From Kaistella soli (lineage in GTDB: Bacteria > Bacteroidota > Bacteroidia > Flavobacteriales > Weeksellaceae), in assembly GCF_019038595.1 (NCBI RefSeq), contig NZ_JAHOPF010000007.1, forward strand, positions 1-64,000: DNA of 64,000 nucleotides. Reading direction: 5' to 3'. The position numbers and the translations under genes were made by a program. Positions 23,637 to 51,551 of this stretch are shown here, piece after piece. The notes beneath the pieces are model-generated. The model saw only the letters and a program-made list of their open reading frames with translations, searched no databases and had not been told where the DNA came from. How positions within the stretch are numbered: the first letter of the stretch is position 1; the number at the start of each line of letters is the position of its first letter.

Positions 23637-23658
23637 AGCAATCGATTACACAAATATA
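23637..23658 (-). promoter_or_regulatory. LacI-type operator plus -7 box, esterase-CE12 operon
   Basis: On the minus strand TATATTTG (23651-23658) is directly followed by TGTAATCGATTGCT (23637-23650), a 12/14 match to TGTAATCGATTACA. An operator at this place would cover the transcription start. Confidence 0.8.
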
Positions 23659-23849
23659 TAACTTTTATTGACGTATTGAACTTAAAAACAGATTTAAACG
23701 CAGATTTCGAAGGTTAAAATAATGTTAAATTCAACTCACAAAATAAGTTTCCTAACACGCGAATCCATTCAAAAACCCTTTTAATATTACATTTTTAATG
23801 ACAATAATCAGAAATATTAATTATTTCTTGCGCATATTAATATTTCATA

Positions 23850-23871
23850 TAACTTTGTGTAATCCATTACA
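23850..23871 (+). promoter_or_regulatory. LacI-type operator plus -7 box, PL1 gene
   Basis: TAACTTTG (23850-23857) is directly followed by TGTAATCCATTACA (23858-23871), one centre base off the perfect palindrome. It drives the PL1 gene at 23905. The rest of the 319-base intergenic region is AT-rich spacer between the two divergent promoters. Confidence 0.8.
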
Positions 23872-23904
23872 TAAATTATAATTATTAAACAAATTTATTG
23901 AATT

Positions 23905-26397
23905 ATGACTAAATTTTTATCCATCCTGAGTTGGCTGTTTACCGCAGTGCTGATCAGCGCACAGGGAGTAAACATCACTGCAGAAGCCGGTTCGCTGGAA
24001 AGCGCCTACGTAAAATGGGATCCGGTAAGCGATGCAGACAGCTATAATGTATATTATTCCGGTGCCGGAATTACCGACCGCAAAATTGACACCCAGCTGA
24101 TCAGAAGTTACGGGACTTATTTCCGTGCAGATCTGCCGGGACTTGCAGCAGGCAATTATACCATTAAAGTAGCTCCGGTAAAAGCAGGCACAGAAGGCAC
24201 AGCCTCCGTATCCAATACGGTAACTGTTCTTGCACACGACCGTAACGGCTTTGCCCACGAAGGCGGAAGAATACCGGGAGCGTACAATATGGACGGTACC
24301 CTGAAAAGCAACGCCGTGGTCATTTATATTACTCAGAATACCAAAAACACCGTATCGATGAATGTTACGGGCGCTACTGCAAACCCGTGTGTAGGTCTGC
24401 AGACGATTCTGGACGGATTCAAAAAAGGAAAAGACAACCGTCCTTTGGCGGTAAGACTGATTGGAAACATCACCGATCCGAGCTACCTTCTGAGCGGCGA
24501 CTTGGTGATCGAAAATAATAACTTCGCCGCAGGTTCCATTACCCTTGAAGGAATTGGAGACGATGCTTACGCCAACGGATGGGGAGTACGGATCAAGAAT
24601 GCCTCAAATATTGAAGTCCGTAATTTAGGATTTATGCTGACTGACGCTGCCGAAGGTGACAATGTTGGTTTGCAGCAGTCCAACGATCATGTTTGGGTTC
24701 ATAACAATGATATGTTTTACGGAAAAGCAGGCGGTGATGCCGATCAGGTAAAAGGAGACGGCGCCCTGGATGTAAAAAAATCAACGTTTGTAACGCTGTC
24801 TTACAACCACTTTTGGGACAGCGGAAAAGCCAACCTTTTGGGATTAAGCGAAGGAACTACGGCAGGTCTTTATGTGACTTACCACCACAACTGGTACGAT
24901 CATTCAGATTCAAGACATCCGAGAGTAAGATACTATTCCGCGCACGTGTATAACAATTATTTTGACGGAAATTCTAAATATGGTGCAGGATCTACAATGG
25001 GTTCTTCCCTCTTTCTTGAAGGAAATTTTTTCAGAAACTGTAAATATCCGATGCTGATCTCCATGCAGGGAACTGATACCTTCACCGGTCCCGGAACTTT
25101 CTCCAGCGAAAACGGCGGCATCATTAAAGCATTTAACAATACAATGAGCGGGCAAAACCGTTTTATTGCTTATGATGCAGTGAATTACCCTGTAGAATTT
25201 GACGCATATGTGGCCAGTTCACGAGGTGAAACGGTTGCCAATACGGTAAAAGCAAAAAAAGGTGCAGGGGTTTATAATAATTTTGATACCGATGCTGCTT
25301 TATATGTGAAAAATTTGGTGGTTGATGAACCCGAAGCAGCAAAAACCAAAGTAATGCAGTATGCCGGACGCGTTGACGGCGGAGACATGAAATGGACTTT
25401 CACCGCTGCGGATGATACTTCCTACGACATCAATGCAGGTTTAAAAGCAATGCTCGTTAATTACACCAGTCCTATGGTTTATGTTCAGGGAGAAACTCCG
25501 GTGGTAGTCAGCACCCAGACGCTTGATATCCCTGCAAATAATGACCAGACTGTCGCTGCAGGAAGCCCAATTGAAAACATGGTATTTACCTGGGGCGGAA
25601 CTGCCACAGATGTAACCGTTGACGGTTTACCGGCTTCAGGACTGACATTCGTTAAAAATATTGCAGCAAAAACAGTAACGGTTACCGGTACACCGACTAC
25701 AGATGTTTCATTTACTTTGACAACGTCAGGATCCTCAGGAACGCCTGTATCTGGATCAGGAAATGTAGCTTTGGGCGAGCCTTCAGCTGAAACCACATTT
25801 ATACATAATTTTACAACTGACGGAAAAGTAAGCACTTACTACACAATCTCAGGAAATATGAATTCAACCGACGGATCGACAAATTATGACGGCAATACGC
25901 TTACGAAAAGGCTGAAAATTGAAACCGCGACCTTCATCAATTATACCACAGCAAAAACCTCAACCCTGACACTGGTTTTTGATCCGGCATTTGCAGGTAA
26001 AATTAAGCTTAACGGGACAACTTATACCGTACCGGCCGGAGCAAACGGTGTGATCAGCATTCCTAATGTACCAGCCGGAGCCAATGCGATCCTGAAAGGA
26101 GACACCGCGAATCTGTTTTATATTAAAACGGTTTATGACACTCAGGTTCTGGCTGCCGGTGAGCAGAACAGAAAGAATCAGCTGACCGTTTATCCTAACC
26201 CGACAGTGGACAAAGTATTAATCCAGTCTGCCGAAGAAGTACAGAATATCAGTATCTTCAGTGCAAACGGAAGTTTGGTGAGAACTGTTACTGGCAATAT
26301 AAAATCAGTGGATCTGCAGCATCTGAATGCGGGAATCTATCTGATGAAAATCACTACAAAATCCGGAAGCACCACCCAGAAGATTATTAAAAAGTAA
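23905..26397 (+). CDS. Pectate lyase PL1, multidomain, T9SS-secreted
   Basis: Cleaves polygalacturonate outside the cell by beta-elimination. Order: signal peptide (1-20), FN3-like domain (about 22-112), PL1 beta-helix (about 125-480) with VKGDGALDVKKSTFVTLSYN, GTTAGLYVTYHHNWYDHSDS and RHPRVR (catalytic Arg region), Ig-like domain (about 535-625), a CBM-like module ending NLFYIKTVYD (about 630-750), and T9SS sorting domain (LTVYPNPTVDKVLIQSAE ... TQKIIKK). 830 residues. Transcribed alone, divergent from the esterase operon, with an operator at its promoter. Confidence 0.93.
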   Translation: MTKFLSILSWLFTAVLISAQGVNITAEAGSLESAYVKWDPVSDADSYNVYYSGAGITDRKIDTQLIRSYGTYFRADLPGLAAGNYTIKVAPVKAGTEGTASVSNTVTVLAHDRNGFAHEGGRIPGAYNMDGTLKSNAVVIYITQNTKNTVSMNVTGATANPCVGLQTILDGFKKGKDNRPLAVRLIGNITDPSYLLSGDLVIENNNFAAGSITLEGIGDDAYANGWGVRIKNASNIEVRNLGFMLTDAAEGDNVGLQQSNDHVWVHNNDMFYGKAGGDADQVKGDGALDVKKSTFVTLSYNHFWDSGKANLLGLSEGTTAGLYVTYHHNWYDHSDSRHPRVRYYSAHVYNNYFDGNSKYGAGSTMGSSLFLEGNFFRNCKYPMLISMQGTDTFTGPGTFSSENGGIIKAFNNTMSGQNRFIAYDAVNYPVEFDAYVASSRGETVANTVKAKKGAGVYNNFDTDAALYVKNLVVDEPEAAKTKVMQYAGRVDGGDMKWTFTAADDTSYDINAGLKAMLVNYTSPMVYVQGETPVVVSTQTLDIPANNDQTVAAGSPIENMVFTWGGTATDVTVDGLPASGLTFVKNIAAKTVTVTGTPTTDVSFTLTTSGSSGTPVSGSGNVALGEPSAETTFIHNFTTDGKVSTYYTISGNMNSTDGSTNYDGNTLTKRLKIETATFINYTTAKTSTLTLVFDPAFAGKIKLNGTTYTVPAGANGVISIPNVPAGANAILKGDTANLFYIKTVYDTQVLAAGEQNRKNQLTVYPNPTVDKVLIQSAEEVQNISIFSANGSLVRTVTGNIKSVDLQHLNAGIYLMKITTKSGSTTQKIIKK

Positions 26398-26844: not shown

Positions 26845-27663
26845 TTATTTCACGATAACCTTTTGGGATTTTACTCCTTTATCCGACTGTACGTTTACGA
26901 TATAAACACCGGTTTTCAAATCAAAATTAACATCAGATTTGGTGTTAAGTGATTTTACCAGTCCGCCTGCGGTATTGTACACATTTACTTTGGTGTCGCC
27001 TGCTACTTTCGAAACGTGAACTCTGCTGCCTTCTGAGAAGATCACAGTGGAATTCTTATTTGCTGAAGTTTCAGAAGCAGCTAAAGTATTGGACGCTAAA
27101 GTGGTAATTACCGTAGCACCGCTCACCTCAATTTTGTAAAAATTAATCGCAGCATCAGTATAGATATAGAACGTTCCTGCTGATGGGATACTCGCAGTAA
27201 GAATCGCAGTATCAGCTGGCGTCGCAGAAGGACTTGTTGCCGCTGAACCGTAGAGCGTCATATCTCCGTTACTAACATAAGCTGTTCTTACAGCTCCTCC
27301 GCTTCCGCTCTTGTACCAAGCTTTTACAGTACATGCTCCATTCGTCTGAATGAAGAAATAACGTTGGGTCGGATGATAAGTTCCTGCAGATACAGCACCT
27401 CCCCCGTTGGTTTGAAATCTGTTTCCTGTACCGACATAACCGTCGGAAAAAGTAACCTGAGAAGAGTTGGTAATCGCCCCGAAATTGGAGTTGCTTGAAA
27501 TAGGATTAAGTCCTAAGCCCGCTTTTACGATTGGCGTTGTCCCAATCCCTGCATTGATCGGCCAGTTGGTTGCATCATTACTGAAGTCCCATGAGGTAGT
27601 CTGCGCATTTGCAGAGAAAACCGACAGCAGACTTGCGAATGCAACAAGTAATGTTTTTTTCAT
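26845..27663 (-). CDS. Small T9SS-secreted CBM-like protein, copy 1
   Basis: Start set at MKKTLLVAFASLLSVFSANA (27663). A module of about 170 residues (WDFSNDATNWPINAGIG ... FYIYTDAAINFYKIEVSG) precedes a T9SS sorting tail (RVHVSKVAGDTKVNVYN ... KGVKSQKVIVK). No catalytic signature is visible. The module recurs in its neighbour at 27945 and, in related form, in the PL1 and CE8 proteins, so it is probably a carbohydrate-binding module, perhaps for pectin. It has its own operator-promoter. Confidence 0.75.
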   Translation of the reverse strand: MKKTLLVAFASLLSVFSANAQTTSWDFSNDATNWPINAGIGTTPIVKAGLGLNPISSNSNFGAITNSSQVTFSDGYVGTGNRFQTNGGGAVSAGTYHPTQRYFFIQTNGACTVKAWYKSGSGGAVRTAYVSNGDMTLYGSAATSPSATPADTAILTASIPSAGTFYIYTDAAINFYKIEVSGATVITTLASNTLAASETSANKNSTVIFSEGSRVHVSKVAGDTKVNVYNTAGGLVKSLNTKSDVNFDLKTGVYIVNVQSDKGVKSQKVIVK

Positions 27664-27708: not shown

Positions 27709-27730
27709 TACAATCGATTGCACAAATATA
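27709..27730 (-). promoter_or_regulatory. LacI-type operator plus -7 box, CBM-like gene 1
   Basis: On the minus strand TATATTTG (27723-27730) is followed at once by TGCAATCGATTGTA (27709-27722), itself a near-perfect palindrome and a variant of TGTAATCGATTACA. Confidence 0.78.
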
Positions 27731-27944: not shown

Positions 27945-28739
27945 TTATTTCACAATTACTTTCTGAGATTTTGATCCTTTTACGGATGTTGTATTGACGA
28001 GGTAAATACCAGGCTTCAGGTCAAACGAAACATCAGATTTCGAATGCAGAGAATTCACCAAAGCTCCATTCATGGTATACACCGAAATAGCGGTAGGAAC
28101 TGAAACTTTTGAGACATATACAGTTTTACCGTTGGTGAATACTTTTTCCGCAGCCTGAGCACTCTCACCTGTCGCTAATGTGGTGGCAGTAACGGTAATC
28201 TTGGAGATATTACAGGCACTGTCTCCGTAGACATAAAGCCGTTCTGTACCTGCACTGGTTTTCTTTGCCGTGAAGATTTCTCCGGTACCTGCAGCATCAG
28301 TAATTCTCTGCCCTAAAACCGTTGAACCGTCAGTAACGAACACTGTTCTGGCAGAGCTGTTGCTTCCTGATCTGAACCACACCGTTACCGTAACGGGACC
28401 CGAAACATCAAAATAAAGATATCTTTGGCTCGGAGTGGTTGTAAATCCGCTGCTTGGATAACCTGCGCCGTTGAGCTGCAGACGGTTGACACCGGAATAA
28501 CCGTCGGTATAAGTGTAAGATGTTGCAGTAATCGCCCCAAAATTGGTAATGGTTCCGTCACCCTTGCTGAAAAGTCCCAGCTGATCAATGGTTTTGTCGG
28601 CAACTCCGGTTCCGGAATTCAGCGGCCAGTTGGTGGTGTCATTTGCAAAATCCCAGGTTTTGGGAAGGGCAATCTGCGCTTTCATGGTGAAGGTGGTGCT
28701 CATCACCCCTACCAACATAAGAAGTAAGGTTTTTTTCAT
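27945..28739 (-). CDS. Small T9SS-secreted CBM-like protein, copy 2
   Basis: Start set at MKKTLLLMLVGVMSTTFTMK (28739). It is a paralogue of the 26845 protein over its full length: WDFANDTTNWPLNSGTG, NFGAITATSYTYTDGYSG, PSQRYLYFDVSGPVTVTVW, then a T9SS tail ending KGSKSQKVIVK. As in the first copy, no catalytic motif is visible. Tandem duplication with divergence suggests two ligand specificities or dosage. Own operator-promoter and terminator. Confidence 0.75.
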   Translation of the reverse strand: MKKTLLLMLVGVMSTTFTMKAQIALPKTWDFANDTTNWPLNSGTGVADKTIDQLGLFSKGDGTITNFGAITATSYTYTDGYSGVNRLQLNGAGYPSSGFTTTPSQRYLYFDVSGPVTVTVWFRSGSNSSARTVFVTDGSTVLGQRITDAAGTGEIFTAKKTSAGTERLYVYGDSACNISKITVTATTLATGESAQAAEKVFTNGKTVYVSKVSVPTAISVYTMNGALVNSLHSKSDVSFDLKPGIYLVNTTSVKGSKSQKVIVK

Positions 28740-28782
28740 AAACATTTTTTTAAAGTACTGATTTGTTGTTATTTATATTTAA

Positions 28783-28804
28783 TACAATCGATTACACAAA
28801 TATA
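28783..28804 (-). promoter_or_regulatory. LacI-type operator plus -7 box, CBM-like gene 2
   Basis: On the minus strand TATATTTG (28797-28804) is directly followed by TGTAATCGATTGTA (28783-28796), a 12/14 match to the consensus palindrome. Confidence 0.8.
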
Positions 28805-28977: not shown

Positions 28978-30318
28978 TTAGTCTTTAATAAATTTTAAGG
29001 GAAAAGATTGGTCTCCAGCCCGCAGCCTTCCAAAATAAGTGCCTTTCGGAAGGTGAGCAACATCAACGGTCATCGTCTTACCAGAAGTATTCGGCACAGA
29101 TCCTGAATAAACCTTCCTTCCTTCTGGGTTGTAGATTTCCAGATTCATCAGTCTGTTGCGATTGACCGGAAGTTCAATATTCAGTACATCCTTTACCGGT
29201 ACAGGAAATAATTTTAACTCAGGAGTTTTTCCCGTGCTGCCTACTCCCATATTGGCACACTGTCCCGGCGTAATAACCCCGGACTCAGTCACCTGCAATG
29301 TCGCACCTGCGCCACAGCCAGGATCAGGCACGTAAGCAGCCACATTTTCTGTAGGAATGACGGTATATGCATAATTGGGCGGACTTACCGTACCGATATT
29401 GGACCCACCGCCGATCGCGCCAGCTCCGGAAAGGCTGTTGATATAATTTACGGCAATGCTGCCCCCGTCTGTGGACACATAACTTTTGAAAAATGTACTG
29501 ATTTTAGCATAGTTTGTATTTTCAACATATACCGTGGAATTTTTAGTACCGCCGCCAAGACCTAACCCTACAGCACCGGAAACATTCGTGTTGTAATAGC
29601 AGTTCAGAATATGCAGCTCAGCATTCCTTGCGCGGGGCATCCTTTCCCGGCAACCGTCGGCCCAGTAACAGCTTTGATAGGTAATGCTGTAATGTCCGTC
29701 CGCAGGCGCATCTGTGGCACTGGAACCTACAAGATTCGAAAAACGGTGATCGTTGCTTCCGCCTACTCCCCCTGCAATAGGCGCCTTCAGGTAAGTAAAT
29801 TTACACCACGAAATAGTGACATTGTCTGCAGATCCTACATTGTCAAAATTGCCGTCCTGCCCGTCCTGAAATTCACAGTGATCCACCCAGATATTGGTAC
29901 CGCCTTGGTTGGTAAGGTTATCATTTCCGTTGATGTCGTAGGCACCGGGACCTACAAAAATCAGATTTCTGATGATAACATTATTAGAGCCGCTTTTCAA
30001 ATTAAGAATCCCGGCACCGGTTTGGTTTTCATTAACCAGTTTAGCACCCGGCAGTCCGATAATAGATTTGTTGGTAATCACTGCGCTGATCTGCTGTCCT
30101 GAAGGAATCTGAATGGTTCCCGATACCAGAATGACCTTTGACCCAGCGGAAGTAATATTGGATCTTAAACTGGTAAAATCTGTCACTGTTACCGGAGCTG
30201 CATTGCCGCCACCCGTGGCCGCGGCACCAAATCCTTCAGGCGCTGCCTGATAGTAAACCTGACTGTTCATTACAGAAAATCCCATCAGCCAGATCATCAT
30301 TAAAAATACCTTTCTCAT
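28978..30318 (-). CDS. Pectate lyase PL1, T9SS-secreted
   Basis: Extracellular pectate lyase. Signal peptide (MRKVFLMMIWLMGFSVMNSQ), PL1 beta-helix (about 35-340) with GTNIWVDHCEFQDGQDG (Ca-binding Asp region), VTISWCKFTYL and CRERMPRARNAELHILNCYY (catalytic Arg), then a sorting domain (LKLFPVPVKDVLNIELPV ... FPLKFIKD). 446 residues. It is the last gene of the SusCD operon, 56 bases after the CE8 gene. The second PL1 enzyme (23905) carries extra modules absent here. Confidence 0.92.
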   Translation of the reverse strand: MRKVFLMMIWLMGFSVMNSQVYYQAAPEGFGAAATGGGNAAPVTVTDFTSLRSNITSAGSKVILVSGTIQIPSGQQISAVITNKSIIGLPGAKLVNENQTGAGILNLKSGSNNVIIRNLIFVGPGAYDINGNDNLTNQGGTNIWVDHCEFQDGQDGNFDNVGSADNVTISWCKFTYLKAPIAGGVGGSNDHRFSNLVGSSATDAPADGHYSITYQSCYWADGCRERMPRARNAELHILNCYYNTNVSGAVGLGLGGGTKNSTVYVENTNYAKISTFFKSYVSTDGGSIAVNYINSLSGAGAIGGGSNIGTVSPPNYAYTVIPTENVAAYVPDPGCGAGATLQVTESGVITPGQCANMGVGSTGKTPELKLFPVPVKDVLNIELPVNRNRLMNLEIYNPEGRKVYSGSVPNTSGKTMTVDVAHLPKGTYFGRLRAGDQSFPLKFIKD

Positions 30319-30374
30319 ACTAAGTTGTTTAAATTGAATGGATCAGATCCATTCTGCTTATATTTATTTAATTA

Positions 30375-33300
30375 TTAATCAGTTCTCAGTTTTACCGACT
30401 TTGTTCCTTTTGAATTCTGAAGGTGGATCAGCCAAATTCCTGCCGGTAGTTCAAAACTACTGTCCGATGAAACAGCAAAAGACCTCATTAAGGAGCCGTT
30501 CACTGCATATACTTTTACGGCAGTGGTGTTTTTAACATCATCAATATATACGGTGTTTCTGACGGAAAAAACCCTGGTATCCAAAACAGGTTTCACTGAA
30601 GCGCTTCCCAAAACAGTTTCGGAAAACGGATCCCAGCCGTCATTCCCTTTGGTGAAATTCAGGGTGGTAATCGCGGTTCCGTCAGTAAGTTGTGGCAGCG
30701 TCAAAAATGTTGCCCAGGCAGCCCGGTTTCCTGAATTATTCACTCCGGAAACTTCAGTGGTCCCGTATTCATACATTCCGGACGAAGTTCCGCCAAGGGT
30801 ATTTTGCCATCCAAGCGGCATAATAAGGGAAGTTCCGACAGATCCGGGGAAATCTGACACTTCAACAGTTGTATTATAAAATACGGCTTCACTGGTATTT
30901 GCAGCCCATGGACGTCCAAAATAACCGGGTTTCGAGCGGTAAACAGACGCGGTCTGAACCAGAGGCTGAGCACTGGTAACCTTACAGTTGTACATGAGGT
31001 ATCCTCTTCCTGACGTCTGCTGTGGCGCGGTAATATAAGAAAGATCGCTGCCCTGGTCGCTCGTGTTCATCACCAGATTGGTCTGATAAAACACCGCCGT
31101 CATTCCTCCGAAAATAAAATCAACTGCACCCATAACATCACCTTTGTACAGGGCGACTCTCGCTCCCTGAGCTCCGTAAAACGAATCCTGACGTCCGACA
31201 ATTCTGCAGTTTTTCAGGAAACTGCGGTCTCCGCTTCCGGTGATAGCAAGTGCAGCAGCTCTTTCTACAAGGGATTTATTCTGAACGGAAGTGTTTTTCA
31301 GATCCGTCGGTCTGGCACCAGGACTTCCTGAAGTCCACGGCACCACTACATCCTGCGATTCTTTTGCTGAAACATATTGGTTGAATGAATTCTCGAAAAT
31401 AATGCCGTCAGCTTCGAATCCTTTTGCATTCACGACCACTGTGGCATTCCAGAACGAACCGTTGGTGGTTCCGGAACCAGCGTTGGCGTATGAAAAACTT
31501 CCGTTCTCTTTATTGACATTAAGAACTTCCTGACTCCATTTCTGGTTGCTGCCCATTGAATAATAATGATATCCATGTCCGTAATAAGAGGTGATGCGCA
31601 CGGCATTGGGTGAAATATCAGTTCCTTTGTTCAGAATGGCAGTATCGGGAGAACCGGCCGCATTTTTCAAGGTGATATTCGGCTGAGATACCACAAGCAT
31701 CTCTTCATAATTTCCCGGATCAACCAGTACCGTGACTCTTTGGGTATCATTTCTGCTCATATTGGAAACAGCATTTAAAGCGGCATTAATGGTTTGAAAC
31801 TGCTTCCCGGATCCTACGGTAATTTCAGAGGCATACGCAACATTCTGAACGGTACGGATTTCAGTGAAATACGAAGTAGATCCTGCAGCGCCGCCAACGG
31901 TGATGGTCACGTTTCCGGGAACGGATCCCGGATAAACATACTCAGCCCATTCCGTTATGGATGTTGAATTGGAAGCGGTAGAATAAGTCGCACCGCCTTC
32001 GATCGAGAAGTTAGCAGAGTAATAATAGGAAACAATCACCTTCTGTCCCGGATTTACCGGAACTAGGATCGTCGCCCCTGGTTTTGCCGTTAAATGACCG
32101 GATGCAGGCACTGTTGTAACCTGTCCGTTAAGCTGCATCCCTTTATAATAAACAGTGGTAACAGAATTAACTTGCTGATCATCAAAAGACCACACATTCA
32201 CCGGATTAAAAACCAGATTTTTGGACGCCGGAGCGCCGTTGATATTCAGGTTTGAAGCAAGTGCAAGTTCCACGGGAAAATTATTCAAACCCGAAAACGA
32301 AATGCTGTATTTACCGTTTCTGAGGTTAATATTGGAAAGATCCGAAAAACTGTATGAGTATCCCGTTTCGTTAATATTCGTAAAACTAAGATTCAGTGCA
32401 TTCTGCTGTGTGGGATTTAAACCCGAAACATTTAAACTCACCAAATATTGAGGTTTGGGGCTGAAATTAATTGGAAATGTCGTATTACCCGCTACCGTTA
32501 TAATATTATTGGTGATTTGAAAATCATTGACTCCCTGTGATGAAATGGTATACTGCACCCCCGGAACAAGCTGCACCGAATAAGTGGAATTTGCCGTATT
32601 GATAACAGGATTCGGAACATAAATGCTTCCGCTTCCTGCATCCGGAGTGAACGTTAATCCTGCATTGGTAATGTTACCGCCTAAACCGGTAATACTTCCG
32701 CTAACTTCAGCCAAACTTACCGACGAAACCGAAATCAGATGCGTGAATGTTGAGGACGCTCCCACTGTGCTGAATGTTTCCCCTGTCGTGATAATATATC
32801 CGCTCGCATTGGCGAGACTTACGGTATAGGAATAACCGACCGGCAGATTAATCTGATAAGCATTCGAATTCACAGGAACATTCCAGGTTTTTCCAGCCAC
32901 ATTGGTGAAAACCAGGGAATATCCCGCAGGAATCCCACTGGCCTGACTCACATCTATGTTTCCGGAAACACTGGTATATACCGCTGCTTTCCTGTAAATC
33001 CTGTAGAAACTGGCTTTGGCCAGTGCATCATAAATAAAATAATTCCCCGCAGTTTTTGCAACAAAATTAGCTTCTGTTACCGCACCGGATGCAGCAGTGG
33101 TTGACACATTATCACTTTGCGAAGCCGGATTGGATGCATAACTGAAAGTCAGCTTTCCGGCGGTATCACCTCGGGCAATCACTTTAATTTCATCATCTTC
33201 ATTAAGATTGATTTTAAAATATCTTGCGTTCGGCTGCCCTGCGGTAACAGTAGGGATAGCGTTGCAATAAAGGCGCCCGTTATAACCGGTAACCGATGCG

Positions 33301-33593: not shown

Positions 33594-33615
33594 AATTATA
33601 TTTTTGAGATTGGTA

Positions 33616-33662
33616 TAAAAAAAATTGCTGTCTGATTCTTATGAAATGTAAGAACAGACAGC
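33616..33662 (-). terminator. Internal terminator between susD and CE8 gene
   Basis: Minus-strand stem GCTGTCTG/CAGACAGC (33627-33662), extended by TTCTTA/TAAGAA, followed by T8. It lies inside an otherwise same-strand gene series, and no TAnnTTTG box is seen between it and the next ATG, so partial read-through is likely. Confidence 0.75.
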
Positions 33663-38516: not shown

Positions 38517-38520
38517 ATAA

Positions 38521-42894: not shown

Positions 42895-42905
42895 GATTTT
42901 AAATT

Positions 42906-44375
42906 TTAAGAAAAATGACTGATGAAATTCTGATATCCTTTTTCAATACCGTTTTCTTCAGCATTTTTTATCGCATAAGTGATCGCGCTGTGCAGACCGG
43001 GAATACTGTTAAGGTCTTGATCCCAGAATCCGGTGTTCGCCAGAATTTCTTCTACCGTCGCTTCCAGACTGGTGTTTTTCCAGGCTTGATCAAATGTTTC
43101 TACAATATCTTTAGAATCCTTCACCGGCAAAGATTTCCCGTTCCAGCTTCCTTTATAGTAACGGATCATACATGCAAAACCAAAAACCAGGTGATAAGGC
43201 AGTTTTCCGTTCTTTTCAAAATATTCAAGAATCGTCGGAAGCACCCTAACTTTAAACTTGGATACAGAATTTAATACAATATCCGAAAGCTGATGACGGA
43301 TGAACGGATTTCTGAACCGGTCCAGAACTTCTTCTGTAAAGCTTTTCAGTTCTTCCTTATCCATGTCCAGCGTAGGTACAATTTCGTTGAATGCGATTTC
43401 ACTAACATACTTCATCGTGAAAGGGCTTACCACGGTTTCCTGTACGGTTTCATTGCCATACATCATGGAGAACGGAACCATCGCAGTATGAATACCGTTG
43501 AGAATCCTCACTTTTCGGTTGCGGTACGGCTGCATGTCGGACACAATTTTTACATCCAGACTGGTTTTGTCGAAAGGTAATTTTTCTTTTAACTGGTCAT
43601 CGCCTTCAATCACCCAAAGGAAAAAAGGTTCGGCGGTGACCATGAATTTATCCTGATAATCAAGTTTATTGCTGAATTCTTCCTCTTCATCTCTCGGATA
43701 TCCGGGAACAATTCTGTCCACCAGAGTATTATGGAAAGTACAGGCTTCATTGATCCATGCGGCAAAGTCTGCTTCAAGCTTCCAAAGTTCGCAATACTGC
43801 AGAAGGACTTTTTTCAGCGTATCTGCATTATGGTTGATCAGTTCACACGGAATGACCGTTAAACCTTTGCTGCGGTCGCCTTTAAAGTGATTGTATCTTT
43901 CGTAAAGTACGGCAACCACTTTGGCGGGAAAAGATTTCGGACTTTCTTCAGAAAGCACGTCGCTATCCACAAATTCGATTCCGGCTTCTGTCGTATTGGA
44001 AATGATAAATTCCAGACTGTCAAGTTTTGCAACATCCAGAAGTGCCTTAAAATCTTTGTAAGGATTGATGCACTTTACAATATTATCGATCAGGTGATTT
44101 TCCTGAATTTTCTTTCCGTTTTTAATTCCGTTCAGGAAAACAGTGTATAAGGCATCCTGTTCGTCCAGTTGCTCAACCATTCCTCCGGGAAGCGGCTGCA
44201 CGACGGCTACGCCGGCATTGAAACCAATTTCTTTGTTAAGGGTATGAAAAGCATAATCTACAAACGCTCTTAAAAAATTTCCTTCTCCAAACTGAAGAAT
44301 TTTTACCGGCAGTTCGGCTCCGCTACCATAAGCTTCACGGTTTAATCTGGGTTTGGTATTAGTATCTGTTGTCAT
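42906..44375 (-). CDS. uxaB: Tagaturonate reductase (altronate oxidoreductase)
   Basis: NADH-dependent reduction of D-tagaturonate to D-altronate, of the mannitol dehydrogenase superfamily. N-terminal Rossmann part with ILQFGEGNFLRAFVDYAF, followed by the C-terminal domain containing KVRILNGIHTAMVPFSMMYG (catalytic Lys and Asn-Gly-x-His motif). 489 residues, as expected. It starts 2 bases after the transporter gene. Confidence 0.94.
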   Translation of the reverse strand: MTTDTNTKPRLNREAYGSGAELPVKILQFGEGNFLRAFVDYAFHTLNKEIGFNAGVAVVQPLPGGMVEQLDEQDALYTVFLNGIKNGKKIQENHLIDNIVKCINPYKDFKALLDVAKLDSLEFIISNTTEAGIEFVDSDVLSEESPKSFPAKVVAVLYERYNHFKGDRSKGLTVIPCELINHNADTLKKVLLQYCELWKLEADFAAWINEACTFHNTLVDRIVPGYPRDEEEEFSNKLDYQDKFMVTAEPFFLWVIEGDDQLKEKLPFDKTSLDVKIVSDMQPYRNRKVRILNGIHTAMVPFSMMYGNETVQETVVSPFTMKYVSEIAFNEIVPTLDMDKEELKSFTEEVLDRFRNPFIRHQLSDIVLNSVSKFKVRVLPTILEYFEKNGKLPYHLVFGFACMIRYYKGSWNGKSLPVKDSKDIVETFDQAWKNTSLEATVEEILANTGFWDQDLNSIPGLHSAITYAIKNAEENGIEKGYQNFISHFS

Positions 44376-44377
44376 TA

Positions 44378-45910
44378 TTAATCTTTTATTACTTTATATT
44401 TTGGAACTAAGCCTTTCATTACAAACCATGCGACAAGATAAGCGACGGCACAGATGGAGAAAATAATCATGTAACCGGTATTGATTCCGTCGGAAATCAC
44501 CGCTCCTGAAGCCTTGAGATTCGCAAAGAAATCATCAGGAATTCTTTCGGTATTGAACTGCGGATATTTCTGAAGCAAAGGAACGCCGTCAACAGTGGTC
44601 CAGTTCTTATGGGAAAAATCGAATAATACACCGGAACCTTTATTGATCAGGAACGAGCCGATTCCTCCCGCCATTCCGCCAATTCCTGTTACAGTTGCGA
44701 TGGCTCTTTTAGGGAACATATCACCAACGGTGGAAAAAATATTGGCTGACCACGCCTGATGCGCGGCTCCTGCAACTCCGATGATTAAAACCGGAATCCA
44801 GTAACTGAGGTGCCCGCCCGGCTGAGCCAAAAGTGCAAGGAGTGGGAAAAATGCAAAAATCAGCATCGCACGCATTCTTCCTGCATAAGGATCAAGTCCT
44901 AGTTTATTCACAAAATATTTTGGAAGCCAGCCGCCAATAATCGCAAGCAGCGTAATGACGTAGAGTACGAACAGCGGTAAAGCACTTTCGGTACTGTCCA
45001 TTCCGTACACAGAGCTTAGATAAGCCGGTGTCCAGAACAGGTAAAACCACCACACACCGTCCGTCATGAACTTTCCGAAAGCAAATGCCCAGGTTTGTCT
45101 GTATTTAAAACATTCTTTAAAAGTGAATTTTTTACCAATGCCTTCACCGTTTTCATTTACAGCCTGGTCATCATGATCCTGCTGAATGTAATCAAGTTCA
45201 CACTGGTTTACTTTTTTGTTTTGATGAGGCTTTTTATAGTAAAATATCCAGAATCCCATCCATACGAAACCTAATGCTCCAATAATGATGAATGCCATTT
45301 CCCAGCCATAAGCTTTCGCGATAAACGGAATACTTACGGGCGCTGCCAAAGCTCCTACGGTCGCACCGGCATTGAAAATACTGGTGGCGAACGCACGGTC
45401 TTTCTTAGGAAAATATTCTGCTGTTGTTTTAATTGCTGCAGGAAAGTTACCGGCTTCCCCAATCGCAAGAACGAAACGCGCAAAAATAAACAGGGTAACA
45501 CTGGTGCTGATCACAAGCGATACATTGTTCACGGTTGCAATCGATTCTTTTGCTCCTTCAAAACCTACGAACCAGTTTCCTGTAAGCATCCCTGAAGTCG
45601 CAATTCCGCAGAATGCATGAAGAACCGCTCCGATGGACCAGATAAAAATGGCCCAGAGAAATCCTTTCTTGGTATCCATCCAGTCGATAAATTTCCCGGC
45701 AAACATCATACTTACCGCATAGAAAATAGAGAACAGCGCCGTGATGTTACCGTAATCGGTATTGTCCCAGTGGAACTCGGGCTGCAGATAATCTTTCCAG
45801 GTAAGGGAAAGCACCTGCCTGTCAAGGTAATTGATAGTCGTGGCAAAGAAAAGCAAAACACAGATGGACCATCTGACATTGGTAGACTTGGTATTCGTAC
45901 TCTGATTCAT
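44378..45910 (-). CDS. MFS hexuronate transporter
   Basis: Predicted inner-membrane symporter for galacturonate or unsaturated uronates, close to the ExuT/anion:cation symporter branch of the MFS. About twelve helices; first-loop signature NYLDRQVLSL and GKFIDWMDTKKGFLWA, and AIGEAGNFPAAIKTTAEYFP in helix 4-5, typical of the family. A cytoplasmic loop near 235-260 is charged. 510 residues, slightly long because of extra loops. Operon position between eda and uxaB supports a galacturonate substrate. Confidence 0.9.
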   Translation of the reverse strand: MNQSTNTKSTNVRWSICVLLFFATTINYLDRQVLSLTWKDYLQPEFHWDNTDYGNITALFSIFYAVSMMFAGKFIDWMDTKKGFLWAIFIWSIGAVLHAFCGIATSGMLTGNWFVGFEGAKESIATVNNVSLVISTSVTLFIFARFVLAIGEAGNFPAAIKTTAEYFPKKDRAFATSIFNAGATVGALAAPVSIPFIAKAYGWEMAFIIIGALGFVWMGFWIFYYKKPHQNKKVNQCELDYIQQDHDDQAVNENGEGIGKKFTFKECFKYRQTWAFAFGKFMTDGVWWFYLFWTPAYLSSVYGMDSTESALPLFVLYVITLLAIIGGWLPKYFVNKLGLDPYAGRMRAMLIFAFFPLLALLAQPGGHLSYWIPVLIIGVAGAAHQAWSANIFSTVGDMFPKRAIATVTGIGGMAGGIGSFLINKGSGVLFDFSHKNWTTVDGVPLLQKYPQFNTERIPDDFFANLKASGAVISDGINTGYMIIFSICAVAYLVAWFVMKGLVPKYKVIKD

Positions 45911-45931
45911 GAGCTAAGTTTTTAAATCTGT

Positions 45932-46597
45932 TTATGCATTTTTTACCGACTGCACGGTTTCCAGAACCTTTCTGGTTTCAGATTCCATTTCGGAATAATT
46001 CTGTTCGGACATCAGTTTTTTACTGATCAGCTTACTTCCCATTCCTACTGCTGAAACGCCGGCTTTGAACCAGCCTTCGATGTTTTCACGGGTGGTATCC
46101 ACGCCGCCTGTGGGCATAAATAACAGATTCGGGAAGATATCTTTTATTCCGCTTAAAAAATCAGGGCCGAGCATATTCCCCGGGAAAAGTTTGATAAACT
46201 TCACGCCCGCATTTTCTGCCGCGATGATTTCAGTAGGCGTCATACAGCCCGGGCTGTAAAACTTGTCCTGGCTGATAAGAAATTCTGCAACTTCCGGTAC
46301 AAAACCCGGACTGATAAAGAAATCAGCGCCGGCTTCCACAAAATCTTTGGCCTGCTGAAGGTTTTTGATGGTACCGATTCCCAGAAGCAGATCCTGCATT
46401 TCGGAATCTCTGGTTTCCACCATTTTTTTGAAATTATTCAACGCGGCTTCACCACGGTTGGTATATTCTACGGCACGGATTCCGGCGCGGTAAATCGCAC
46501 GCAGGGTTTCAATGGTTACCGTTGCATCGGCATTGAAATATAAGGGCAAGATTCCCTGCTTTACTACGGCATCGGAAACTTTCTGAATATTGCTCAT
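45932..46597 (-). CDS. eda: KDPG/KHG aldolase
   Basis: Cleaves 2-keto-3-deoxy-6-phosphogluconate to pyruvate and glyceraldehyde 3-phosphate. TIM-barrel class I aldolase; the Schiff-base lysine is in GVKFIKLFPGNMLGP, and the family signatures AVEYTNRGE (with catalytic Glu position), GADFFISPGF and PTGGV are present. 221 residues, normal. Cytoplasmic; last enzymatic step of the pectin route. Confidence 0.95.
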   Translation of the reverse strand: MSNIQKVSDAVVKQGILPLYFNADATVTIETLRAIYRAGIRAVEYTNRGEAALNNFKKMVETRDSEMQDLLLGIGTIKNLQQAKDFVEAGADFFISPGFVPEVAEFLISQDKFYSPGCMTPTEIIAAENAGVKFIKLFPGNMLGPDFLSGIKDIFPNLLFMPTGGVDTTRENIEGWFKAGVSAVGMGSKLISKKLMSEQNYSEMESETRKVLETVQSVKNA

Positions 46598-46607
46598 TTG
46601 ATCTGAA

Positions 46608-47057
46608 TTAAATTTTTACTTTAAATACTAATTTCCTGATTTCATCATCACCAATCATCGGTGCATGGACGTCATCCGGATAAAAAATCACAAACTGACG
46701 GTCTTTTAAACTGAAAAACATATCCGGCTCGTCCTCAAAAAAGAGAACATCCTTTGCCGGATCATACTCGCCTTTCGGTGAAGCGCAGGTTTCGCGGGGT
46801 TTCCACCCGATAGTTTCATTACCTTTTACACAAACCTGAATGTCGATATTGGTATTGTGACATTCAAATTTCTTTAAACTTTCTTCTGCGGTTTTTCCGG
46901 TTTTCTGGCTGACAATTACTTTCAGCCCTTCTTCGATCTGTACCGTTCCGTCTGGCAAAGCCATCAGATCATTTTCCTGAATAAATTTAAAAGCACTCGA
47001 AAACAAAGGATGCAGCCCGAAATATTTCTCCGCGTTATGTAGTGAATCTATAATCAT
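46608..47057 (-). CDS. YhcH/YjgK/YiaL (DUF386) family protein
   Basis: Small cupin-like protein of the YhcH/YjgK/YiaL family, seen next to sugar acid or sialic acid genes in many bacteria. Motifs CHNTNIDIQVCVKGNETIGW, FFEDEPDMFFSLKDRQFVIF and FYPDDVHAPMI match the family. The exact reaction is not established; an aid in uronate isomer handling (mutarotase-like) is inference. 149 residues, full length, 12 bases after kdgK. Confidence 0.88.
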   Translation of the reverse strand: MIIDSLHNAEKYFGLHPLFSSAFKFIQENDLMALPDGTVQIEEGLKVIVSQKTGKTAEESLKKFECHNTNIDIQVCVKGNETIGWKPRETCASPKGEYDPAKDVLFFEDEPDMFFSLKDRQFVIFYPDDVHAPMIGDDEIRKLVFKVKI

Positions 47058-47069
47058 TGTTAAAGAATT

Positions 47070-48110
47070 TTATCTTGCAACACGTCCGGAAGCGTCGCCG
47101 CCCATCAGTTTGGTTACTTCATCTACGGTCACCAGGTTGGCATCGCCTTTAATGGTATGTTTAAGACATGAGGCGGCTACCGCGAAATCCAGTGCGTTCT
47201 GGTCATCCTCAGGATAAGTCAACAGTCCGTAGATCAGTCCGCCCATGAAAGAGTCTCCTCCGCCGACACGGTCAACGATATCGGTGATCTGATACTGTCT
47301 TGTCTGCAGCATTTCCTTACCGTCATATAAAACTCCGGCCCAGGTATTGTGGGAAGCCGAGATGGAACCTCTTAACGTAGTAATTACTTTTTTGGCTTTC
47401 GGGAACTTCTGCATCATCTGCTGACAAACGGATAAAAACGCTTCCGCCTTTACATCGTGACCGTGAGTCTGCACCGCCGCACCGTCGGGTTTGATACCGA
47501 AATGCATTTCCGCGTCTTCTTCGTTTCCGAGGATGATGTCGCAGTAAGAAGTAAGTTCGGTCATGATTTTTTCTCTGTCTCCGCCATATTTCCAGAGTTT
47601 GGCTCTGTAATTCAGGTCGGTGGAGATGGTAAGTCCAAGTTTGCTTGCAGCTTTTACAGCTTCAAGACACACATCAGCCGAACTCTGTGAAATCGCCGGC
47701 GTAATTCCGGTCCAGTGGAACCATTCCGCTCCTGCAAAAACCTCTTCCCAGTTCACCATTCCCGGCTGAATTTCAGCCATCGCGGAATGGGCTCTGTCGT
47801 AAACCACTTTGCTTCCTCTGGAAACAGCACCGGTTTCAAGGAAATAAATTCCCAAACGGTCTCCGCCCCAGACAATTTTATCTACACCTACGCCTCTTTT
47901 ACGCATCTCCATCATAGCGCACTGGCCGATATCGTTTTTTGGCAAACGGGTTACGAAATCTACAGGAATTCCATAATTCGCCAATGATACTGCTACATTG
48001 GATTCGCCTCCGCCGTAAACAACATCGAAATTATCAGCCTGCGAAAATCTTAAAAATCCCTGTGGTGCAAGCCTAAGCATTATTTCACCGAAAGTAACTA
48101 CTCTACTCAT
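47070..48110 (-). CDS. kdgK: 2-keto-3-deoxygluconate kinase
   Basis: Phosphorylates KDG to KDPG. PfkB/ribokinase fold: GEIMLRLAPQGFLRFSQADN at the N-terminus, VYGGGESNVAVSLANYG substrate loop, and the C-terminal signature DRVGGGDSFMGGLIYG with the catalytic Asp. 346 residues, normal. It joins the unsaturated and saturated uronate branches, which both end in KDG. Confidence 0.93.
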   Translation of the reverse strand: MSRVVTFGEIMLRLAPQGFLRFSQADNFDVVYGGGESNVAVSLANYGIPVDFVTRLPKNDIGQCAMMEMRKRGVGVDKIVWGGDRLGIYFLETGAVSRGSKVVYDRAHSAMAEIQPGMVNWEEVFAGAEWFHWTGITPAISQSSADVCLEAVKAASKLGLTISTDLNYRAKLWKYGGDREKIMTELTSYCDIILGNEEDAEMHFGIKPDGAAVQTHGHDVKAEAFLSVCQQMMQKFPKAKKVITTLRGSISASHNTWAGVLYDGKEMLQTRQYQITDIVDRVGGGDSFMGGLIYGLLTYPEDDQNALDFAVAASCLKHTIKGDANLVTVDEVTKLMGGDASGRVAR

Positions 48111-48135
48111 CTGTATATATTTTTAATGTATAATT

Positions 48136-48462
48136 TTATCTGTTTAAAAAGTCTTCACGCATTGGGCTGAAAGACTCGATTAGAACGCCGTCTTCCAGGC
48201 AGACAACACCGTGCATAATATCGGTGGGCAGGAAAAATGAATCTCCTGTTTTCAGAACTTTTTTATTTTCTTCGATCTGAACTTCAAATGATCCGGAAGC
48301 GATATAAGCGGCCTGCGAATGAATATGCTGATGCAGTTTGCCAATTCCGCCTTTTTTAAAACGCACAATGGTCAGCATCAGTGAATCATCAAAACCGACA
48401 ACTGCCCGGTCTAAATTTTCATCGATTTTCTCCCACTTATAATTGCTTTGCTCTAAAAACAT
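48136..48462 (-). CDS. kdgF: KdgF-type cupin, unsaturated uronate linearisation
   Basis: KdgF proteins convert 4,5-unsaturated galacturonate to the linear 5-keto-4-deoxyuronate (established for Yersinia KdgF). The single cupin barrel of 108 residues shows the metal site H-x-H with FKKGGIGKLHQHIHSQAAYI and the second motif PTDIMHGV. It sits between uxaC and kdgK with GH105 products as likely substrate. Length matches the family. Confidence 0.88.
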   Translation of the reverse strand: MFLEQSNYKWEKIDENLDRAVVGFDDSLMLTIVRFKKGGIGKLHQHIHSQAAYIASGSFEVQIEENKKVLKTGDSFFLPTDIMHGVVCLEDGVLIESFSPMREDFLNR

Positions 48463-48475
48463 TTGGTTTTAAATT

Positions 48476-49876
48476 TTAGAAATTGAAATATTCTTTCGCA
48501 TTGTGATAACTGATGTCCGAAACGATTTTGCCAATCCATTCCATATCATTCGGAAGTTCACCCCGCTGGATTTCATCACCGAGAAGATTACAGAGTACAC
48601 GTCTGAAATATTCATGTCTTGGGAAAGAAAGGAAACTTCTGGAATCCGTCAGCATCCCGATGAAACAGCTTAAAAGTCCCATATTGGAAAGGGCATTCAT
48701 CTGTTTCGTCATGCCGTCTTTCTGATCCAGAAACCACCAGCCGGAACCGAACTGTACTTTTCCTTTTACACTGCCGTCATTGAAGTTCCCGATCATGGTC
48801 GCGAATACTTCATTATCAGCAGGATTAAGATTATAAATAATTGTTTTGGTCAGTTTGTCATTAGAATCCAGACGGTTTAAGAAGGCGGAAAGCTGCCGTG
48901 CCTGAGAAAGATCGCCGATGGAATCCCATCCTGTATCAGGTCCGAGAATTCGGTGCATTCTCGCATTATTATTTCTCAGAGCTCCAAGGTGGAACTGCTG
49001 CACCCAGTCAAAACTGTGGTAAGATTCTGCAAGGAAAATAAGGATTGCGCTCTGGAATTTCAATGCTTCCTCCCCGGAAATCTGATCTCCGTCTCTGCGT
49101 TTTCTGAATATTGCCGAGATTTCATTTTCTGTAAATTCTGCGGAAAAAATCTGGTCAAGCCCGTGATCGGAAAGCCTGCATCCGTTGTCGTTGAAATAAG
49201 AAATTCTTTTGGTTAAAGCTTCACACAGATCGGCGTAGGTATTGATCTCAATTCCTGCAGCCTCAGCCAAAGTATTCACATATTCATTATAGCCTTCATT
49301 CTCAATCAGGATCGCTTTGTCCGGCCTGAAAGCAGTGCTTACTTTAATATTGAAATCGCTTGCTGCTATTTTTTTGTGGTGCTCTAAGCTGTCCACAGGA
49401 TCTTCCGTAGTACACACCAGTTCAGCATTCATTTTCCTCAAAAGGTTTTGCGTGCTGTATTCGGGCGAACTGATCTTTTCAGAAGCTTCGGCATAGATTT
49501 TCTCTGCCGTATTTTCATTCAGTAAATCATAGATATCGAAATATCGCGCCAGTTCCAGATGCGTCCAGTGAAACAGAGGATTCCTCAGCGTGTAGGGAAC
49601 TGTTTTTCCCCACTGAAGAAATTTGTCTTTTGCAGCCGCATCTCCGGTAATGAAATTTTCATTCACCCCTAAAGTCCGCATTGCGCGCCATTTGTAATGA
49701 TCACCGTTGATCCAGGCTTCTGTAATATTTCCGAAAACATGGTTATCCGCAATCAGTGCCGGTGAAAGGTGATTGTGATAATCAATAATCGGCTGGTTTT
49801 TCGAAAAGTTGTGGTACAGCTCTTCGGCATATTTGTTTTCAAGGAGAAAGTTGTCGTGAATAAAATTTGTTTTCAT
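48476..49876 (-). CDS. uxaC: Glucuronate/galacturonate isomerase
   Basis: Isomerises D-galacturonate to D-tagaturonate. Family signatures include PIIDYHNHLSPALIADNH near residue 30 (metal-binding His), FHWTHLELARYFDI, and a late GMLTDSRSFLSFPRHEYFRR. 466 residues, as in E. coli UxaC (470). Cytoplasmic. It starts 12 bases after kduD. Confidence 0.96.
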   Translation of the reverse strand: MKTNFIHDNFLLENKYAEELYHNFSKNQPIIDYHNHLSPALIADNHVFGNITEAWINGDHYKWRAMRTLGVNENFITGDAAAKDKFLQWGKTVPYTLRNPLFHWTHLELARYFDIYDLLNENTAEKIYAEASEKISSPEYSTQNLLRKMNAELVCTTEDPVDSLEHHKKIAASDFNIKVSTAFRPDKAILIENEGYNEYVNTLAEAAGIEINTYADLCEALTKRISYFNDNGCRLSDHGLDQIFSAEFTENEISAIFRKRRDGDQISGEEALKFQSAILIFLAESYHSFDWVQQFHLGALRNNNARMHRILGPDTGWDSIGDLSQARQLSAFLNRLDSNDKLTKTIIYNLNPADNEVFATMIGNFNDGSVKGKVQFGSGWWFLDQKDGMTKQMNALSNMGLLSCFIGMLTDSRSFLSFPRHEYFRRVLCNLLGDEIQRGELPNDMEWIGKIVSDISYHNAKEYFNF

Positions 49877-49888
49877 TTTTAATAATGA

Positions 49889-50674
49889 TTAATCTTCATT
49901 CGAAGGTTTTCCGATGGTGGCTAAAATTCCGCCATCTACATAAATAATCTGTCCGTTTACAAAATTGCTGGCTGCCGATGCGAGAAAAACCGCAGCACCG
50001 CCCAGATCTTCCGGATTTCCCCATCTTCCCGCAGGAGTTCTGCTGATGATGAATTCATTAAAGGGATTTCCGTCGACGCGGATAGGCTCAGTCTGCGAGG
50101 TCGCAAAATAACCCGGACCGATTCCGTTAACCTGAATATTATGCTTAGCCCATTCTGTCGCCAGGTTTCTGGTGAGCATTTTTAAACCTCCTTTTGCGGC
50201 GGCATAGGCGGAAACACTGTTTCTTCCGAGCTCGCTCATCATGGAGCAGATATTGATAATCTTGCCTTCATTTCGCTCGATCATCTGTTTCGCAACCAGT
50301 TGAGACATAACAAAAGGCCCTACAAGATCCACATCGATCACACGTCTGAAATCTGTAACCGACATAGAAATGGCCGGCTCACGTTTGATAATTCCGGCAT
50401 TATTCACCAGAATATGGATTCCTCCGGCTTCTTCAGTAATCAGATCTACATATTTCGCGGCTTCATTTTCGTCGGTAACGTCAAAAAGATATCCTTTTGC
50501 GTCATAACCTTTGGAGTGATAGTAAGCCAAGGCATCCTCCATTTTCTGCGGCGTAGTGCCGGTGATGAGGAGTTTTGCACCAGCGATTGCCAGAGCTTCA
50601 GCCATCGCCATTCCGAGACCGTGTGTGCCGCCGGTAATGAGCGCATTTTTATTTTTTAAACTGAATAATTCCAT
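49889..50674 (-). CDS. kduD: 2-dehydro-3-deoxy-D-gluconate 5-dehydrogenase (KduD-type SDR)
   Basis: Reduces 2,5-diketo-3-deoxygluconate to KDG. Short-chain dehydrogenase: NAD(P) loop ITGGTHGLGMAMAEAL, NNAG motif VNNAGII, catalytic Ser in ICSMMSELGRNS and Y-x-x-x-K in AYAAAKGG. 261 residues. SDR members are hard to tell apart from gluconate 5-dehydrogenase by sequence alone, but the direct position after kduI decides. Confidence 0.9.
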   Translation of the reverse strand: MELFSLKNKNALITGGTHGLGMAMAEALAIAGAKLLITGTTPQKMEDALAYYHSKGYDAKGYLFDVTDENEAAKYVDLITEEAGGIHILVNNAGIIKREPAISMSVTDFRRVIDVDLVGPFVMSQLVAKQMIERNEGKIINICSMMSELGRNSVSAYAAAKGGLKMLTRNLATEWAKHNIQVNGIGPGYFATSQTEPIRVDGNPFNEFIISRTPAGRWGNPEDLGGAAVFLASAASNFVNGQIIYVDGGILATIGKPSNED

Positions 50675-50676
50675 GT

Positions 50677-51519
50677 TTATCTTAATTCGTTGGGAGCACA
50701 GATATCCATATCGCCGTAATCTAAATTTTCACCTGCCATTCCCCAGATAAAGGAATAGTTGGAAGTGCCCGCTCCGCTGTGGATCGACCATTCCGGTGAT
50801 AATACCGCTTCGTTGTTCTGCATGAAAATATGTCGCGTCTGTTGTGGCTCGCCCATAAAATGGGAAATCGTCTGCCCTTCTTCCAGATCGAAATAGAAAT
50901 AAGCCTCCATTCTTCTGGAATGGGTGTGCGCAGGCATCGTGTTCCAGATATTTCCGGGAAGCAGCTCTGTAAGCCCCATCTGAAGCTGGTTGGTTTCAAC
51001 AATGCTGTTGACGATCAGTTTGTTCAGAACTCTCCGGTTGGCTGATTTTTCTTCACCAAGCTGAATCACTTCTGCATTTTCTTTTCCAACTTTTTTGGTC
51101 GGAAATTTTTCATGAGCAGGAGCAGAATTAAGATAAAACAAAGCTGGATTGCTGCTGTCTTTACTTACAAACAATACCTCCTTCACTCCTTTTCCGATAT
51201 AAAGCGCTTCTTTTTTGTCAAGTTCGAACACTTCGCCGTCTGCATGTACCTCTCCGCTTCCGCCTACATTGATGATTCCGAGTTCTCTGCGGTCGAGGAA
51301 GTTTTCGGACTTAAGGTAAGGGATGGTTTCAAGGGTAAGTTTTTCATTGATCGGCATTGCACCGCCCACAATGAATCTGTCATACATGGAATACACAAGA
51401 TTCACCTCGTTCTCCGTAAAAAGATTCTGCATTAAAAACTCGCTGCGGAGTTTATCGGTATCATAGGATTTTACATCTGCAGGATTCGCTGCGTACCTGA
51501 AACTGAAATTGGTCTTCAT
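50677..51519 (-). CDS. kduI: 5-keto-4-deoxyuronate isomerase
   Basis: Converts 5-keto-4-deoxyuronate (DKI) to 2,5-diketo-3-deoxygluconate (DKII). Cupin-fold zinc enzyme: MPAHTHSRRMEAYFYFDLEE carries the zinc His and Glu ligands. Start set at MKTNFSFRYAANPADVKSYD (51519), which leaves the operator at 51530 outside the gene; the frame opens upstream without a better start. 280 residues, as in E. coli KduI (278). First gene of the ten-gene operon. Confidence 0.95.
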   Translation of the reverse strand: MKTNFSFRYAANPADVKSYDTDKLRSEFLMQNLFTENEVNLVYSMYDRFIVGGAMPINEKLTLETIPYLKSENFLDRRELGIINVGGSGEVHADGEVFELDKKEALYIGKGVKEVLFVSKDSSNPALFYLNSAPAHEKFPTKKVGKENAEVIQLGEEKSANRRVLNKLIVNSIVETNQLQMGLTELLPGNIWNTMPAHTHSRRMEAYFYFDLEEGQTISHFMGEPQQTRHIFMQNNEAVLSPEWSIHSGAGTSNYSFIWGMAGENLDYGDMDICAPNELR

Positions 51520-51529
51520 AATAATTATC

Positions 51530-51551
51530 TGTAATCGATTACACAAAGATA
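51530..51551 (-). promoter_or_regulatory. Perfect LacI-type operator, kduI-uxaA operon
   Basis: TGTAATCGATTACA (51530-51543), a perfect palindrome, is directly downstream of the minus-strand -7 box TATCTTTG (51544-51551). It lies 10 bases before the kduI ATG. Confidence 0.85.

Follow-up and report, generated by a model that had tools for sequence, protein, structure and literature searches.

The pectin regulon of Dickeya is under one repressor, KdgR, which belongs to the IclR family. In Bacteroides, the LacI-family regulators UxaR (BT0824), KdgR (BT0487) and UxuR (BT1434) are predicted to control uronate catabolism (passages of PMC3878776 and PMC4052901), and hybrid two-component systems (HTCS) are predicted to control rhamnogalacturonan loci (passages of PMC3878776). 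According to these passages, uronate catabolism lies mostly apart from the HTCS-controlled pectin polysaccharide utilization loci (PULs), and few extracellular or periplasmic genes belong to the KdgR regulon. The subject here is a 64,000-nucleotide stretch of Kaistella soli DNA (contig NZ_JAHOPF010000007.1; hereafter the window) in which a pectin locus occupies roughly 17.7-53.3 kb and contains six palindromic operators joined to promoters and one LacI-family gene, lacI, at 40190. Unlike the arrangement in Bacteroides, one LacI would cover secreted enzymes, SusCD and catabolism.

The Kaistella regulator would resemble UxaR, KdgR and UxuR in role, as predicted LacI-family control of galacturonate, glucuronate and 2-keto-3-deoxygluconate (KDG) catabolism in the same phylum. 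The Bacteroides HTCS_Rgu regulons are alike in controlling pectin enzymes and SusCD but use a hybrid two-component activator and direct-repeat sites, and the ManR regulon is alike in that a single regulator takes in extracellular enzymes, a SusCD operon and the catabolic genes of the cytoplasm, but ManR belongs to the GntR family and serves mannosides (passages of PMC3878776). Lac-type repression in general would share the block at or near the start site; the promoters that would be blocked here have TAnnTTTG boxes. The kind of system is already known, because Bacteroides has both predicted LacI-family uronate regulators and a ManR regulon that spans SusCD and catabolism. Searches of open-access papers showed no description of this operator in flavobacteria; among the passages available from the Gramella flava pectin PUL paper, the sole mention of LacI is in a figure legend (PMC5306329). 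The same searches turned up neither this regulon in flavobacteria nor the geometry at its start sites nor the conserved deviations of its operators.

Operator-promoter modules in the window

The promoters considered here and the regulator gene are as follows.
23637..23658, minus strand: operator TGTAATCGATTGCT after -7 box TATATTTG, gap 0, ahead of the esterase operon
23850..23871, plus strand: -7 box TAACTTTG and operator TGTAATCCATTACA with changed centre, gap 0, ahead of PL1-CBM77
27709..27730, minus strand: operator TGCAATCGATTGTA and box TATATTTG, gap 0, ahead of secreted protein A
28783..28804, minus strand: operator TGTAATCGATTGTA and box TATATTTG, gap 0, ahead of secreted protein B
40016..40035, minus strand: perfect operator with a 2-base overlap with box TATATTTG, ahead of GH28-SusC-SusD-CE8-PL1
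51530..51551, minus strand: perfect operator and box TATCTTTG, gap 0, ahead of the kduI-uxaA operon
40081..40088, plus strand: -7 box TACTTTTG of lacI, no abutting operator
40190..41212, plus strand: LacI-family regulator, the sole PF00356 match in the genome (Pfam and genome profile search)
51742..53331, plus strand: second GH28 gene (GH28b; Pfam; gene at 51814) with box TAATTTTG, no operator

The earlier note, made from the letters of the window, had reported six palindromes, and all six are present with the split that it gave: those at 40016 and 51530 are perfect, TGTAATCCATTACA at 23858 has a changed centre base, and those at 23637, 27709 and 28783 have altered outer bases. Its description of five palindromes abutting the -7 box and a sixth overlapping it by two bases is also borne out by offsets of 0 at five sites and -2 at 40016. 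In the phylum the -7 box has the consensus TAnnTTTG, reported to be confirmed, with no accompanying -33 motif, in Flavobacterium johnsoniae (passages of PMC7366714). This sigma-ABfr type of box is present in all six modules, and a -33 TTG at 18-21 spacing is found among them only at PL1-CBM77. The centre of the even palindrome is CG in 5/6 operators and CC at PL1-CBM77. From operator end to annotated start codon the distances are 11, 11, 34, 38, 43 and 49 bases, the 43 hinging on a GTG start that is uncertain. Of the LacI-family sites tallied in the relevant passages of PMC4052901, more than 75% fall 140 to 30 bases ahead of the start codon, so two of the window operators are closer than usual.

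We propose, with a probability of about 0.86, that the gene at 40190 encodes a repressor, like KdgR/UxaR in role, that controls six transcripts, and with them nearly all of the pectin-degrading genes of the bacterium, by covering the transcription start. A LacI dimer would bind the six palindromes. With the box centred at -7, an abutting operator would occupy about -3 to +11; because the operator comes directly after the -7 box, or two bases into it, the bound repressor would cover the start and keep polymerase out. A pectin-derived uronate intermediate would release the repressor. KDG is our guess for this inducer because both catabolic branches meet there. Release would turn on the six transcripts together, for the secreted enzymes, the SusCD importer and the cytoplasmic pathway.

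The genome scan suggested in the earlier note finds that the motif is not randomly scattered through the genome (3.10 Mb, 20 contigs, 99.98% complete). All 4 occurrences of the strict palindrome TRYAATCGATTRYA lie in the window (the reversed control gave 0). Up to two mismatches to TGTAATCGATTACA are found at 18 places (reversed control 6): six in the window, namely five operators and a site within lacI, and 12 elsewhere, each with exactly 2 mismatches. No site outside the window has fewer than two mismatches, and three sites inside it do. At up to 3 mismatches, the genome-wide gap-0 search returned the six modules, the reverse reading of the 51530 site and a site at C16:82080 (3 mismatches; reversed control 1). 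Since the control also gives 1, the C16:82080 site, ahead of a nitroreductase-like frame named by eye, is taken as chance. The offset -2 pattern at up to 3 mismatches gave 15 rows, of which 9 fall inside the window; those outside all have at least 2 mismatches. An offset of -2 is easier to reach by chance than 0 because the palindrome itself supplies TG, and five of six 4-mismatch sites with a box stood at -2, against none at 0; the case for -2 rests on the GH28 promoter, where it was found in 12/12 genomes. Shuffling gave the same picture within the window: 14 palindrome matches at up to 3 mismatches compare with a shuffle mean of 3.77 (0/100 shuffles reach 14), and 6 modules, counted as TAnnTTTG at -2 to +2 of such a palindrome, compare with a mean of 0.09 and a maximum of 3 when the window was dinucleotide-shuffled 300 times.

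Conservation of modules and operator deviations

About 40 kb around lacI (less at contig ends) was taken from 20 family genomes with a lacI relative. The window and 11 of the 20 relatives carry modules at the same kinds of genes. Counting a TAnnTTTG box within -3 to +3 of a palindrome with up to 3 mismatches, and leaving sites with another box uncounted, the offset is 0 at the esterase operon (11/11), PL1-CBM77 (11/11), kduI (12/12), proteins with a type IX secretion system (T9SS) tail (17/17 sites) and CE8 (2/2), and -2 at GH28-SusCD in all 12 genomes; the G075 contig ends before the esterase-operon and PL1-CBM77 sites. Operator columns hold 97-99% majority base, compared with 54-74% in the flanks. 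A further 25 regions, comprising 14 stretch groups from 11 genomes (most chosen for a module or lacI) and 11 named loci, gave 35 sites at offset 0, three at -2, two at -1 and one at +2; six of these loci are from Arenibacter and are close relatives of one another. Lutibacter, Arenibacter, Wocania and a Paludibacter metagenome-assembled genome have modules ahead of kduI, GH28 and uxaB beside lacI relatives of 54-58% identity. In G325, of the same order, modules also stand at distant loci ahead of SusC-SusD and GH28-like genes, so that its regulon appears scattered.

Two promoters of the locus lack an abutting operator. In 10/12 genomes the 230 bases ahead of lacI include a TAnnTTTG box, and in none of them does it abut an operator, which leaves no autoregulation by an abutting operator at these boxes; no box was found in these 230 bases in G172 and G075. 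In 10/12 genomes 161-183 bases separate lacI from the divergent GH28 operator upstream of it, which may have an indirect effect on lacI. GH28b has a box without an operator in the five genomes read by eye (the window, G172, G075, G168 and G048). Given these bare boxes, lacI and GH28b are probably expressed without LacI acting at their start, and GH28b, a candidate constitutive exo-enzyme, seems to have been kept out of the regulon on purpose. Operator-like sites inside lacI (40321 and 40816) were considered as auxiliary operators and taken as coding coincidence, because across 12 genomes the best match varies in place and quality (1 to 5 mismatches) and because at 623-626 bases into the gene the match spells NIDY, GIDY or GIEY codons. 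Upstream of GH28b, a wide inverted repeat TTTGTAA ... TTACAAA (about 51686-51713) is a possible site of another regulator; it was not seen by eye in the upstream regions of four relatives.

Departures from the operator consensus are specific to the promoter and are conserved across genomes. Of 65 sites from the 12 genomes, 55 have a CG centre, and the other 10 all belong to PL1-CBM77, with CC in the direction of transcription. Ten of 11 PL1-CBM77 operators have CC; the eleventh, in G006, has CG, and so do the ones in G428 and G432, which are not members of the family; this places the CC form in the nearer clade. The esterase-operon operator has a GCT end in 8/11 genomes and that of secreted protein A a GTA end in 6/6. 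When operators were shuffled among the four main promoters inside each of 11 genomes, the observed within-class difference of 134 fell below the minimum of 233 in 5000 shuffles (null mean 306). Mismatches to consensus number 65 in the downstream half and 10 in the half adjoining the -7 box.

Two accounts of these deviations assume that LacI binds. The first, to which we give a little less than an even chance, is that the CC centre and altered downstream ends reflect a constraint other than affinity, for example shared descent or a demand of the initial transcribed sequence. The 65 to 10 imbalance fits this account, as the downstream half would be transcribed, and a CC centre confined to the nearer clade fits a single inherited change. 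The deviations are nevertheless kept although the flanks have diverged, and one common initiation rule fails because initial sequences differ between promoters. The second account, tentative and held at roughly one chance in three, is that operators are tuned, the repressor affinity particular to a promoter being retained from species to species: the secreted lyase PL1-CBM77, whose operator centre is altered, would leak as a scout enzyme, GH28b and lacI would be unrepressed, and the importer and catabolic operons, whose sites are perfect or close to it, would be held tightest. If the operators are tuned, the cell would probe for pectin before committing, and affinity would be set by changes confined to the downstream half, which leave the promoter undisturbed. 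The conserved deviations form a natural variant series in which to ask whether selection on operator strength serves to order gene expression.

The LacI-family gene and its association with the motif

The lacI product matches PF00356 at 49.2 bits (cut-off 27) and PF13377 at 117 bits (cut-off 26.5). The LacI helix-turn-helix and the periplasmic-binding-protein-like sugar domain are thus both present, which places the protein in the LacI/GalR family, and its nearest solved chains are CcpA and PurR. Judged by its LacI protein, the closest named relative is Chryseobacterium sp. HSC-36S06 (99%), in a list that may omit the genome itself. Regulators were searched for by the LacI (PF00356) and Y_Y_Y (PF07495) domains. 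PF00356 gives no second match, in agreement with the single LacI-family gene of the earlier note. Y_Y_Y is the domain of the hybrid two-component sensor that marks an HTCS-controlled PUL; no match to it over cut-off was found genome-wide, one match on another contig reaching 21.7 bits against a cut-off of 26.6. The contrast with Bacteroides drawn in the earlier note, where hybrid two-component regulators typically drive pectin loci, stands as to the Y_Y_Y regulators over cut-off that are lacking here, but not as a contrast in LacI-family control, since in Bacteroides uronate catabolism is itself predicted to be under KdgR, UxaR and UxuR (passages cited above). Four genomes (G006, at C6:203777 and 204895, G198, G321 and G392) have two lacI relatives each, side by side in G006, G198 and G392.

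The motif and lacI occur together at three taxonomic levels. In the genus, at least two strict palindromes are present in 10/10 genomes with lacI and in 1/26 without it (Fisher p 4e-8, a value that overstates independence because genomes are related and genes travel together); six more of the 26 have one strict palindrome. Across the family, at least two palindromes are found in 41/62 genomes with lacI (E-value up to 1e-100) and in 3/135 without. Among 296 Flavobacteriales, the exact gap-0 module occurs in 24/50 genomes with lacI (E-value up to 1e-80) and in 2/246 without, and the reversed control gave 0 among the rows listed.

Several observations weigh against control of the modules by this LacI. 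The other 26 of the 50 order-level genomes with lacI have no exact gap-0 module, and two genomes have the module without this lacI. Nine of the 20 relatives (G055, G121, G099, G183, G185, G054, G144, G132 and G037) lack an exact TAnnTTTG at offset 0 in the stretches scanned, and three of the 25 further regions (G254, G360 and G282) lack any module. Co-occurrence alone does not name the binding protein, because lacI and the locus travel together. The nine module-poor relatives still have palindromes; G121 and G099 match at -2 only, and in G054, G144 and G132 a TTTG without TA abuts at four sites, read by eye.

A regulator of another family might bind the palindromes, the neighbouring lacI being coincidental or in control of something else. 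Direct binding by LacI is what we infer, and the two order-level genomes with one module each, like the three family genomes with at least two palindromes, do without this lacI. We nevertheless consider a foreign regulator improbable: the CG-centred even palindrome is a LacI-family signature, tallied at 1173 of the LacI-family regulators in the passages of PMC4052901, lacI is embedded in the pectin locus in relatives, and the co-occurrence is strong at all three levels. We give hardly any weight to the palindrome as an RNA element in the leader, part of which is probably in the mRNA given its position 11-49 bases before start codons in the window, as the conserved deviations of several promoters break outer pairing and the first half would be largely untranscribed where the -7 box abuts it. 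With LacI as the repressor, the locus would be a compact Flavobacteriales case in which a lac-type repressor, not a hybrid two-component sensor, runs everything from secreted lyase to catabolism. The fixed promoter-operator offset provides a search pattern for such regulons.

Genes of the pectin locus

Pfam identifies PL10-CE8, GH88/105, GDSL and BD-FAE esterases, PL1-CBM77, PL1, CE8, two GH28 proteins, SusC, SusD and a uronate pathway in the locus, whose genes other than lacI and GH28b are arranged as follows.
17761..23594, minus strand: operon of BD-FAE esterase, DUF4861, GH88/105, PL10-CE8 and GDSL esterase (Pfam; the start of the first gene is uncertain, GTG)
23905..26397, plus strand: PL1-CBM77 with T9SS tail (Pfam)
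26845..27663, minus strand: secreted protein A, T9SS tail
27945..28745, minus strand: secreted protein B, T9SS tail, 48% identity to A
28978..40005, minus strand: operon of GH28, SusC, SusD, CE8 and PL1 (Pfam)
41281..51519, minus strand: operon of kduI, SDR (kduD), uxaC, cupin (kdgF-like), pfkB (kdgK), yhcH, 2-keto-3-deoxy-6-phosphogluconate (KDPG) aldolase, MFS, uxaB and uxaA (Pfam)

The short gene names of the uronate operon were read from Pfam and gene order. By Pfam, uxaB is of the mannitol-dehydrogenase type and uxaA of the altronate-dehydratase type; kduI was assigned by NCBIfam. The esterase, PL1, GH28-SusCD and kduI-uxaA genes that the earlier note placed downstream of the modules are there, but the family searches do not bear out its label of two genes as carbohydrate-binding module (CBM)-like. 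These two, secreted proteins A and B, match no CBM or catalytic family in Pfam and NCBIfam, the T9SS sorting tail being the only match over cut-off; B has an additional weak, below-cut-off match to a T9SS surface endonuclease family. The recognised CBM is CBM77, which sits in the PL1 gene at 23905. The predicted structure of protein A has a mean pLDDT (predicted local distance difference test) of 55, from a two-sequence alignment, a confidence too low for fold comparison; the protein may still bind carbohydrate. Both proteins (26845-28745) are small, and each has its own operator-promoter module. PL10 and CE8 are fused in one protein (18497-20464); in G158, G176, G155 and G006 the match at this place is to the CE8 part only. 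At the edge of the locus, 53648-54508 encodes a protein with polyglycine-hydrolase-like structural repeats (BTRD1).

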